A DNA stretch of 64,000 nt, taken from positions 372,001 to 436,000 of the forward strand of contig PNKZ01000003.1 in the NCBI GenBank assembly GCA_013822735.1, read 5' to 3'. The notes beneath the pieces are model-generated. The model did no database searches. It was given only the letters and a program-made list of their open reading frames with translations, and was not told the origin of the DNA. The DNA comes from Pirellula sp. Lineage in GTDB: Bacteria; Planctomycetota; Planctomycetia; Pirellulales; PNKZ01. Both the position numbers and the translations under genes were made by a program. Within the stretch, counting starts at the first letter, position 1. Each line of letters opens with the position of its first letter. Shown in pieces: positions 6,964 through 57,429 of this stretch.

Positions 6964-7014
6964 TCGTAGCTTCACAAACTTGAAAAGCGTTCTAAGTCGA
7001 CTCGCGAAAACAGG

Positions 7015-7146
7015 ACTTACGTCAATTTCTCAATTCGGCGGTGCGCAGATAACTCGAGTTATCTGCGCACCCCTTGTGGGTTTTAGGGTTATGCGCAGTT
7101 AACTCCTGTTATCTGCGCAGCGACAATTCTAAAAGTCGACGTAAGT
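7015..7146 (+). repeat. Dual-palindrome repeat element, copy 1
   Basis: A 132-bp element bounded by inverted ACTTACGTC (7015-7023) and GACGTAAGT (7138-7146). Inside are a perfect 30-nt palindrome (7041-7070, centre AACTCGAGTT), a 22-nt GT-rich linker (7070-7091) containing CCCCTTGTGGGTTTT, and a second inverted repeat (7092-7119) with 12-nt arms differing at one base. A further partial motif ACTTACG occurs at 7164. The second copy is at 57131-57263. No open reading frame is present. It lies 52 bp upstream of a minus-strand gene. Confidence 0.85.
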
Positions 7147-7297
7147 GCTCACAGCAGAGTGGGACTTACGACACGAACAGACGGGAGACTTGAGACCGGA
7201 GACGCCGGACTGGGCCTCGCGTCATGAACACACGCATCCGAATTCTACCATAGTGGCCAAAAACCGCCGGAAAGGGACAATTCACGCGGTTCTAAAG
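7147..7297. other. Intergenic stretch without a recognisable gene
   Basis: Between the repeat element and the terminator of the DUF3500 gene I see no coding frame with plausible start and codon use, and no RNA gene. The sequence is less GC-rich than its surroundings. Confidence 0.6.
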
Positions 7298-53938: not shown

Positions 53939-56900
53939 CTATTGGGCCCCGCTCTTCTGAAACATCGCATTGTTCCGATCGCCGCGCGAGAGGAGATACG
54001 CCATGAGGTCGAGGATCTCGTCTTCCTTGAGCGTGTTGAGCAGGCCGGTGGGCATCATCGAGAGCTTCGACGGCCCCTGCTCTTCGATCTGCTTCCGGTC
54101 GACCCCTTCGATCGCGTTCGGGTCGAGCATGTTCGTGTTGATCATCATCGAATCGCCGGCGAGGTTGATGATTCGGCCGGTGATGGTGCGACCGTCGGCC
54201 GTGACGATCGTGACCGCCGCGTATTGATCGCTGATCACCTTGCTCGGGTCGACGATCGATTCCAAGATGTCGCGCGAGCTAAAGCGGCCTGCGAGTCCGG
54301 AAAGATCGGGCCCTACCGCGCCGCCTGCGTTGTCGAATCGATGGCACGCGAAGCAATTGGCCGCGCCGAACAGTTGCCGGCCGCGATCGAAGTCGCGTCC
54401 CTTCAAGCCGTCCTGCGTCAGCGCCAGCAACTCGTCGAACTTGTATTCCTTCACGACCGGACGCGGCTTGGCGACGATCATCGGAGCGGTCGATTCCGGC
54501 TTCGCTTCGAGCAGTTCCTTGAGCGAGGCCTTCTCGCTTTCGCTCAGCGTGGCGACGGCGTCGTTCTTGATGTTCTGCACGAAGAGGCCGAAGCTCGCGC
54601 CGCCGCGGTAGCTCATCGCTCTCAAGCACCACTGGAAATACGCCTTCCTCAGCTCGGGCGTCCAGCCGGTCTTGAGCACGCGCAGGGCGCGGGCATAGTC
54701 GATTTGCTCTTCTTGCGTCGGGGCCGATTCCAGCAAAGCCATTGTCTTGGCGGCGGCCGACGACGCCTCCAAGTACACCAGCACATTGCAAAGCAGCACG
54801 TTCAATTCCGGCGATTCCGCCGGCACGGCCCGCTCCATCCAGGCGATCGTCCGCTTTTCGGCCGCTTCGTCAGGCTTGCCGAAGCGATTGAAGAGCACAT
54901 GATACACGCGGACGTAGTCGAGCTTCTGCACGGGCGAAAGGCTCGCGAAATCGATTGCTTCCAGCGCCGCGAGAATCTTTGCGCCGAGCTCGAGGCTCGG
55001 AGTCGGATCGGTCGGCTTGCGATGGAACGGGTCGGTCGCCGTAGCCCGGGTCAGTGCGAGTAACGCGTAGATGGCGGCGGCCGGGTCTTTCTCGGCCAAC
55101 GCCTTCTCTTGCCACTCGGCCGGCGGCTGATGTTCGATCGCCGCGCGGGCCGCGAAGCGAATCGCCCGATCGGCGTGCCCAAGATACGGCCATGCGGATG
55201 CCACCGCGGTCGGGTCGGGTTTGTGCAGCGCTTCCAGTTTGTGCCGCAGCTCGCGAGCTGCGACGAACTTGTCCGCTGCCGGCTTACTCGGCGCGGTCGA
55301 ATCGTCGCCGACGTAAGTCACGCGATACAGGCCCGACTGCGTCTTGCGACCGCCGATGGCGAAATAAAGCGCCCCGTCTTTCGGATTCACGATGAGATCC
55401 GTCAGCGGCAGCGGCGTGCCGGTGATGAACTCTTCCAGTTGCGCGGTATACGTGGCGCCGATCGGCTCCATGTGTACGGCGTAGAGCTTGCCGTAGCTCC
55501 AGTCGCAGATGTAGAGCGCGTCTTGATACTTGGCCGGGAACTTTGCGCCATACCCGAAGGTGACGCCGGTCGGCGAGCCGGGCCCGACGTTGACCACTGC
55601 GCCGAAGCTGTCGGCATAGAAGGCGGGCCATTTGCCGGCGCCGTTGCGCCAGCCGAACTCCGCGCCGCTGATCGCATGATTCACGCGCGTCGGCCGGTAC
55701 CAAGGAGTATTCAGATCCCATTCCATGTCGGCGTCGAATGAGAAGAGTTCGCCGTCGCGATTGAACGCGGCGTCATACTCGTTGCGAAAGCCGGTGGCGA
55801 CCAGTTCCCAACGCTTTCCTTCCGGATCGATCTTGTAAATGCAGCCGCCGGGGCCGAGTACGCCGCGCATAAAGCCGCGGCCGTCGGGCATGCGCGGCAG
55901 TAGGTGATCTTCGCCCCACAACTTCGGCACGCGCGAGTCGTCGAGCGGGTCCATCATTTTTGTACCGTTGCCGCAGACGATGTAGAGCGACTTGCCGTCG
56001 GGCCCGAGCAACACGGCATGGGGACCATGCTCGCCGCCGCCGTTGATCTTGCGAAGTTGTTCCACCTTGTCGAGTTTGTCGTCTTTGTTGGTGTCGGTCA
56101 CGCGGTAGAGGCCGCTCTCGTATTTGCCTCCCCGATTGACGACGACGTAGAGCGCGTCGAAGGCCCACAAGAGCCCTTGCGCTTCGCCGAGGTCGACCTC
56201 GATCTTCTCGATGATTGGCTTGGTCTTTTCACCCAGAGCCGGCGGCGTCACGCGGAAGAGCCCGCCGTATTGATCGCAGACGATCAGCCGGCCTTGCGGA
56301 TCAACGCACATGCTGACCCAGGAGCCCTCGACGTCTTTCGGAACCGTGTGCAGCAGTTCGACCTGGAAGCCCTTGGCGATCTTCATCGCTTCGGGGCGCG
56401 TGGCGGTCGGGTCTTTCAAGTTCGAAGCCTTCGCGAGGCGTTCGGCGCTGACGTTCTTCCAAGGTCCGCCGCCGAGCGGTGCAAGAATCTTCGCGGGCGA
56501 CCATTCGCCGACGGTGGTGAAACCCGGAGTGTTCCAGCCCCCTTGCAGCGTGCGCGAACCTTTCCAAGAGGCATCCGTCGCGATCACGGTTTCTTTGCGC
56601 CCTTGTTCGACGACGAGCTTCACGAGCACGGCGCCGGCCGATTTGCCGTCGTTGCGGCCTTCGACGGCGATCACATGCCGGCCGGCCGCGGAGCCTTTGA
56701 CCTGCGTGAGCAGCGTGCCGACTTCCTTGAATTGCGGCGATTGCCACGCGTCGTGCTTGATTGCTTCCTTACCGTCGATGAAGACGGTCAGGCCGTCGTC
56801 GCCCGTGGCGTAGAGCTTCGCCGAGGTGACTTCGCGATCGACCGTGAACTCTTTGCGGAAGTAGATCTTTTCCGGCGCGGCGGGGCCGGTCGCTTTCTCG

Positions 56901-57130: not shown

Positions 57131-57263
57131 ACTTACGTCGATGCATCGATTTCCGCTTGCGCACATAACTCGAGTTATGTGCGCACCCCTTGTGGGTTTT
57201 GGGGTTGTGCGCAGATAACCCCAAGTTATCTGCGCAGCGGCGCGGAGGCGACGCGACGTAAGT
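57131..57263 (+). repeat. Dual-palindrome repeat element, copy 2
   Basis: 133 bp with the same plan as 7015-7146: outer ACTTACGTC (57131-57139) and GACGTAAGT (57255-57263), a perfect 28-nt palindrome (57158-57185), the 22-nt linker differing at two bases, and a second inverted repeat with perfect 12-nt arms (57208-57236). Relative to copy 1 the first palindrome has C in the left arm and G in the right arm where copy 1 has G and C, so pairing is kept. A further ACTTACGTC with its own hairpin (GTCTAC/GTAGAC) follows at 57292-57316. Bases 57317-57429 hold no gene. Confidence 0.87.
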
Positions 57264-57429
57264 CGGCAAAACCGACGATCGACGAATCAGGACTTACGTC
57301 TACTTTGAGAGTAGACGAAGAGTCGCTGATTCGCCTCGTTTTCGGTGCTCGACCGACAGTCCGCCGCATTGTAGCAAACGGTCGATCGCGGATTTGGCCG
57401 GCCCAAAAACAGGCTGGACAGATCGTGGT

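Follow-up and report, generated by a model that had tools for sequence, protein, structure and literature searches.

What two copies of one palindromic element do in the same stretch of a planctomycete chromosome is the question that this locus raises. The window, meaning the whole stretch of 64,000 nucleotides analysed here, corresponds to C3:372001-436000 of a Pirellula sp. draft genome (G000; 6.88 Mb, 38 contigs, 99% complete) and holds copies at 7015-7146 and 57131-57263, exactly where a preliminary description had placed them. That description proposed a small mobile element, a structured RNA or an array of binding sites. It had listed outer 9-bp inverted repeats, a perfect first palindrome and a linker with two differences between the copies, all of which we have recovered, as well as a second inverted repeat of 12 bp, which is perfect in copy 2 but matches at only 11 of 12 positions in copy 1. 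The core stretch of the ~132-bp element is present in both copies, but the unit is longer, with outer ACTTACGTC-like sites beyond both copies and a further module, B, beside copy 2. Likewise, the reported setting upstream of a minus-strand gene applies to one flank, the other flank of both copies being the 3' end of the next minus-strand gene.

In copy 1, the left inner site ACTTACGTC (7015-7023, plus strand) lies in orientation X, with its CGTC end facing the core. It is followed by palindrome 1 (7042-7069; TGCGCAGATA, 8 nt, TATCTGCGCA), the 22-nt linker CCCCTTGTGGGTTTTAGGGTTA (7070-7091, plus strand), which sets the polarity of the element, palindrome 2 (7092-7119; one mismatch between the arms) and the right inner site GACGTAAGT (7138-7146, minus strand). 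Further out are a right outer site ACTTACGAC (7164-7172, plus strand; 8 of 9 matches, 17 nt from the inner site) and a weak and doubtful left outer site (6989-6997, minus strand; 6 of 9 matches, at 17 nt). Copy 2 comprises a left inner site ACTTACGTC (57131-57139, plus strand), palindrome 1 (57158-57185) with the C/G pair to which attention had been drawn, the linker CCCCTTGTGGGTTTTGGGGTTG (57186-57207, plus strand), palindrome 2 (57208-57236; perfect arms of 12 bp), a right inner site GACGTAAGT (57255-57263, minus strand) and a right outer site ACTTACGTC (57292-57300, plus strand; 28 nt from the inner site). Its module B (CCGCATTGTAGCAAA ... ATTTGGCCGGCC) occupies 57364-57403 on the plus strand, the left limit being approximate; copy 1 has no recognisable module B on its right. 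The window contains six occurrences of ACTTACGTC against 0.21 expected, one of them isolated, at 55310.

The element is indeed multi-copy, and we have placed at least 85 dispersed intergenic copies in G000, 33 with a type-3 core and 52 with type 1 or another core type. Genome-wide searches of G000 returned 70 sites for the palindrome pattern and 45 copies of the linker (each with up to 3 mismatches; both reversed controls, 0). Exact-ended copies, of which G000 has 42 (control for exact paired ends, 0), were also found in G005 (17) and G004 (4), both of the same genus, and in G001 (1), of another genus; G006, G002 and G003 gave none. The type-3 linker CTTGTTGGTAAGCGCTCCGACGCGCAC was found in 32 copies in G000, 21 in G005 and 1 in G004 by linker search, and in none of four other genomes of the same family. 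A stringent pattern applied to a GTDB collection of one genome per species (84,980 species, contigs of at least 3 kb, the window genome's own records being possibly absent) matched 18 stretches, all in UWPOB_PLAC3 or 'new MAG-44'; the former is assigned by its authors to Pirellulales in the available part of the source (PMC8103865). Judged by these patterns, the range of the family is narrow, and diverged relatives with other site sequences would escape the GTDB search. Both orientations relative to the contigs are common.

The core runs from palindrome 1 through the linker (22 nt in the window copies, beginning CCCCTTGT) to palindrome 2, both being TGCGCA palindromes. Around it the ACTTACGTC sites follow three plans: inner sites only, inner and outer sites, or two flipped sites, the last being the plan of 13 of the 14 type-3 G000 copies read and of L029. 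A script split 52 G000 copies into parts. Three of these copies (L054, L084 and L087) have type-3 cores; three others (L082, L048 and L080) were also read back to front in the scripts other than the spacer comparison below. Measured to the palindrome edge, sites in orientation X lie at 17-19 nt (49 left and 50 right sites in 51 copies) or at 29-30 nt (13/13 type-3 G005 copies read). Sites in the flipped orientation, Y, lie at 22 nt on both sides (13/14 type-3 G000 copies read and one other copy), at 43 nt (25 left, 15 right) or at 54-56 nt (7 left and 7 right, plus 13/13 in G005). Distances within one orientation step by 10-13, 21 or 32-34 nt, approximately one, two and three helical turns, and the two orientations are about half a helical turn out of step. 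For outer sites that match at 7 or more of the 9 positions, the distance to the inner site is 17 nt in 28/37 cases on the left and 18/29 on the right, and 28 nt in 7/37 and 9/29, respectively; no copy mixes 17 nt on one side with 28 nt on the other.

Between copies, the spacers have a mean identity of only 0.46 and vary little in length, with 98% of the arms and 98% of the sites intact. The sites are thus kept while the spacers drift, which argues for selection on the sites and not on the spacers; the 4 site changes of L029, misregistered in this comparison, are an artefact. Copies with near-random spacers still have their arms and linker almost intact. The means of this low-identity set are inflated by L082 and L087, which were turned the wrong way or carry a different core; without them, by our own reading of the rows, the other 11 copies show 4/440 changes in the arms and 0/132 in the linker. 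The type-3 linker goes with the two-site plan in G000 and with four sites in G005, which makes core and sites modules that can be separated. Among the options first proposed, a binding-site array is supported.

ACTTACGTC and GACGTAAGT delimit array A, and the polar module B usually lies beyond. Ending in TTTTGGCCGGCC, module B is found to the right of array A, with fixed polarity, in 39 of 52 copies, 7 of the 13 misses being cut by contig ends; in these 39 copies, where B lies inside 1 kb, the distance from A to B is at most ~0.5 kb. It is on the left in L021, as well as in L048, L080 and L087, whose parsed orientation is unclear, and none was found near L082 or near L004 (window copy 1). Module B is not an inverted repeat of array A, and the two have no site in common. 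In many copies, GTAG-type REP families (GTAGTCCGCCRCTCCGYGGCGG, GTAGGCACACTCCGTGTGCC and GTAGGGAACGCCCTCYGTGGCGTTC) are nested between A and B and to the left of A, and they often begin straight after a ACTTACGTC site (L001-L093 flanks, e.g. L003, L043 and L085).

The compensatory change that the preliminary description had noted in the first palindrome is real in copy 2, but it is an exception in the family. Among 98 type-1 palindromes (6 of 104 were of another kind and were excluded), 89 are G/G at this position, 8 are changed in one arm and a single one, that of window copy 2, in both. At the two positions nearest the loop, both-arm changes numbered 1 and 1 against 7.7 and 6.1 expected if the arms varied independently. 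Arm changes are therefore unpaired across the family, which speaks against the suggested selection on a folded structure and indicates that the arms behave as half-sites read by a protein; on the counts of 8 one-arm against 1 two-arm changes, we have rejected RNA or cruciform selection. Arms varying without covariation and inconsistent ends had been named as observations that would count against the original proposal: the former is what we found as regards folding, but the ends and copies of the element are consistent. Positions 11-12 of the type-1 palindrome form an asymmetric centre in which one arm often varies and almost never both. Going by these positions, the palindromes behave as if at least one consensus half-centre were required.

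Copies also keep apart from one another. The 85 G000 copies have 1 gap below 15 kb against 15.1 expected, with 0 of 1500 randomisations as low; a few close pairs could have gone missing with lost contigs shorter than 18 kb, but scarcely as many as 14. Among the 52 copies of type 1 or the third linker (the 52 'type 1' positions include five third-linker copies) there is no such gap against 5.7 expected (P 0.0013), and type-3 copies have 1 close gap to these 52 against 7.5 (P 0.0007); within type 3 alone the result (0 against 2.4) is not significant (P 0.07). In a first test, on 82 copies and with counts fixed per contig, 1 such gap was seen where 12.6 were expected, and the gap variation was 0.67 compared with 0.98 (P 0.0004), four type-3 copies being omitted (three on C17, included in the 85-copy test, and one on C29, absent from both). 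In all these tests some positions were rounded, the length of C17 was guessed and the randomisation assumes uniform placement. No avoidance was seen in a control set of 65 G000 loci of a GTAG REP, found by exact match (11 gaps below 15 kb against 9.0). The 38 G005 copies listed (17 exact-ended, 21 type-3) are all on separate contigs, that assembly being too fragmented for a gap test. We know of no described bacterial repeat that keeps its copies apart from each other.

Using gene calls from a codon-GC heuristic and not annotation, neighbours were called for 41 of the 52 parsed copies: 16 are convergent, 23 tandem and 2 divergent (convergent versus divergent, P 0.0013), the tandem pairs running both ways relative to the element (15 and 8). 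The type-3 G000 copies (17 loci) have no 3'-end bias, with 4 convergent, 3 divergent and 5 tandem pairs. Of the 36 copies with B and a called gene beyond it, 28 have this gene on the minus strand; in 18 of the 28, its stop lies at most 60 bp from B.

We have then sought the genes adjoining 14 G000 copies in three genomes of the same genus. Among the 30 loci fetched, some of them paralogues, the element was present in 3/10 from G005 and in 0/20 from G004 and G006. The cleanest empty sites are the G004 counterparts of L043, in which only 35 bp separate two convergent stops and the complete A-REP-B composite of G000 is absent, and of L006, in which the orthologous gap measures 24 bp (these gaps are L130 and L135, and there are others besides). 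Such orthologous gaps without the element indicate that copies have been gained or lost. No offset pair at the A-left/B-right limits was enriched for direct repeats of 4-8 bp (51 copies), and a search next to A by itself, at 51 inner and 21 outer ends, likewise gave no target duplication. The element is probably a small non-autonomous mobile one, as had been suggested, but no autonomous copy of it was seen in the loci read.

Some positions are shared between species. Of 31 fetched G005 loci (from 38 found by pattern, with duplicates removed by hand), 7 share a neighbour gene with one of 72 G000 loci, against a rough chance expectation of one to two; together with L142/L001 and the G004 pair L062/L235, this makes nine shared positions. 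Side and orientation are kept at 8/9 and opposite at 1/9, and the core types differ at 9/9. The far-side gene matched at none of the nine, two pairs having too little flank; given this mismatch, the arrays may sit at points of rearrangement. The shared positions are puzzling, and could have arisen either by inheritance, with the core replaced, or by insertion more than once into gaps that the element favours.

The reading that we prefer, at a probability of roughly 0.48, is that these are non-autonomous dispersed elements, preformed as protein-binding arrays on double-stranded DNA, gained by insertion in trans and subject to target immunity. One dimeric protein would bind each TGCGCA palindrome (10-bp arms around a free centre of 8-9 bp) and a second protein would bind the ACTTACGTCGATT sites, with the linker binding a third partner or setting the geometry. 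Contacts across the array would need sites on defined helix faces, so that a displaced site would have to move by approximately a whole number of turns or, if flipped, by approximately half a turn. The unit, array A followed by module B ending in TTTTGGCCGGCC, would have entered intergenic gaps, mostly beside gene 3' ends, inserted by a recombinase acting in trans, and bound copies would repel new ones over distances of some 15-25 kb, in the manner of target immunity in transposons. The copies themselves show the anatomy, the spacing classes, the unpaired arm changes, the empty orthologous gaps, the polarity and the avoidance; the acting proteins, the recombinase and immunity as the cause of avoidance are what we infer. 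Several observations count against this reading: the near-intact arms of old-looking copies suit a maintained function as well, the constancy of side and orientation at 8/9 shared positions suits inheritance better than fresh insertion, no acting protein or target duplication was found, and not every copy has B in its usual place (on the left in L021, none on the right in window copy 1). The lack of a 3'-end bias in the type-3 G000 copies, and of significant avoidance within type 3 alone, counts against it as well.

In the search for partners and carriers, no neighbour gene recurred in more than 2 of the 52 loci (flanks of ~1.5 kb). A Tn7/TniAB partner was rejected for G000, as its sole strong TniB locus has no exact ACTTACGTC site in 19.9 kb. 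By our own reading of the neighbours, that locus (L268:8142-13165, on C5) has a TniA-like ORF before the strong TniB gene and a 638-aa ORF after it. In G004 and G005 there are weak TniB matches, and the top one in either genome lies in a frame of 870-888 aa; G001, with its one exact-ended copy, has a strong TniB match on a 10.0-kb contig that contains no exact site. An autonomous copy between A and B was seen neither in the loci read nor in the outermost 400 bases of 49 contig starts and ends. The G000 assembly breaks inside the A-REP-B composite at C4, C10, C14, C15, C18, C19, C22, C25, C28, C31, C33 and C37; four of these contigs, C4, C14, C18 and C31, stop at A's right outer site. As contigs end at this site, a multi-copy insertion may be missing from the draft. 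The copy-1 stretch had no match among phages or plasmids, and two pattern matches in viral contigs were discarded as unrelated, being AT-rich and having no TGCGCA in the matched stretch.

The array resembles several known systems in part. MITEs are short and non-autonomous, with an inverted terminal motif, and the array is likewise short and non-autonomous, with the inverted motif ACTTACGTCGA...TCGACGTAAGT at the limits of A, beyond which module B usually follows; it differs in its polar module B and in free spacers between fixed sites, and neither a target site duplication nor, in the loci read, an autonomous relative was found. Phage-integrase attP and plasmid partition sites combine core palindromes with distant arm sites at fixed helical phase. 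The array does the same, but in at least 85 dispersed copies and with no partner gene beside them. The ends of Tn7-like transposons are also arrays of protein-binding sites whose spacing matters, with end polarity and immunity to a nearby second copy, and resident copies of Tn7 and some other transposons block nearby insertion, according to the part of the source available (PMC11406308). As to pattern, cause apart, the array copies likewise avoid each other over many kb. In contrast to Tn7-like ends, no target duplication was found for them, A and B share no site, TniA and TniB were not found between matching ends (TniA being our own reading of a neighbouring ORF), and the G000 TniB locus has no such array.

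The main rival to the trans-inserted, target-immune element is a chromosome-organising site, which we consider doubtful. Here, the array would load or anchor a nucleoid protein (as a loop anchor, a loader of condensin or partition type, or a topoisomerase site), selection would keep one per domain and remove near-duplicates, and any mobility would be past. Avoidance also between core types with different palindromes and linkers is compatible with this, as are the near-intact arms and linkers of copies with random-like spacers, the positions held in common with G005 or G004 (8/9 in the same orientation) and the preference for convergent over divergent gene pairs (16 against 2 in the 52 parsed copies). 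Against it, the family is lineage-limited, exact-ended copies being absent from G006, G002 and G003 and the stringent GTDB pattern being restricted to two other genomes; the change of core type at 9/9 shared positions is unexpected for a fixed essential role, and both orientations relative to the contigs are common.

A site-specific recombination end or attachment site, which excised or integrated cassettes would have left behind and which would have core and arm sites for an integrase, seems improbable. The palindromes, with 10-bp arms and an asymmetric centre of 8-9 bp, do resemble recombinase core sites, the outer pairs are equally spaced on both sides, and in the type-3 G005 copies the direct motif CTTGCGCG is common to both outer pairs. 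However, no recurrent gene lies beside the copies, the left and right outer spacers of G000 show no likeness by eye, and A and B are at most ~0.5 kb apart in the 39 copies with B within 1 kb.

We give little credence to the idea that the element is a repeat of REP/BIME type, simple or composite, that a RAYT has spread. REPs of GTAG or CGTC type have the tetranucleotide tag directly at one end of a 20-40 bp stem-loop, and such REPs have been reported from Planctomycetes, in the part of the source available (PMC3733652). The same source portrays them as short intergenic palindromes in tens to hundreds of copies, mostly downstream of genes, forming mosaic composites and lineage-specific families, all of which the array resembles; GTAG REPs are moreover nested in and beside the composite, and G000 has 8 Y1 transposase matches. 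The array differs in pairing two palindromes around a conserved linker, with no GTAG or CGTC tag directly at the stem (the CGTC inside ACTTACGTC is 17-19 or 29-30 nt from the palindrome edge in orientation X and further out in Y), in its separate, helically phased sites, in arms devoid of covariation, and in copies that avoid each other at 15-25 kb, the control REP family not being spaced out. No RAYT gene flanked by the repeats was found, and we have rejected a RAYT partner, as none of the 8 Y1_Tnp matches has an exact ACTTACGTC site within 1.5 kb. One array (C15:125183-125319) lies 1.7 kb from a Y1 match, about what chance would give by our own estimate.

Structured RNA, as processed hairpins or 3'-UTR stability elements, is very unlikely, since the palindromes, their position mostly at gene 3' ends and the fixed polarity with module B are set against absent covariation (8 one-arm against 1 two-arm change, and two-arm changes near the loop below chance), tandem gene pairs in both directions, no Rfam match to the element (nothing in the window, and only a separate tmRNA in 18 fetched loci) and spacings that step by about one helical turn, a property of double-stranded DNA. 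The tmRNA gene lies at L042:2052-2415, ~0.5 kb from one copy.

In the parts of the literature on planctomycete repeats available to us, and by motif strings, no described element with this plan was found, in line with the preliminary description; four motif strings occurred only in unrelated papers. Dispersed bacterial repeats are usually explained as hairpins (REP) or transposase relics. The evidence here favours helically phased protein arrays on double-stranded DNA whose copies keep their distance, a new family of dispersed intergenic repeat with an open chance of being a new kind of chromosomal site. A bolder and rather unlikely proposal is that these modular nucleoprotein arrays would be the first family of chromosomal sites described in bacteria that space themselves, coming in several core types, one every 80 kb or so, and mutually exclusive across types over 15-25 kb. 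They would be chromosome-domain organisers derived from a once-mobile element, whose palindrome and linker code turns over between species and whose ACTTACGTC code stays. The organisation of the planctomycete nucleoid is an open question. If target immunity is the cause of the avoidance, the copies would be a natural record of the range of immunity in a genome; if function is the cause, they would be sequence-defined domain markers in planctomycetes. In both cases, a DNA-binding protein of unknown kind, or more than one, is predicted to recognise the arrays by an exact code.
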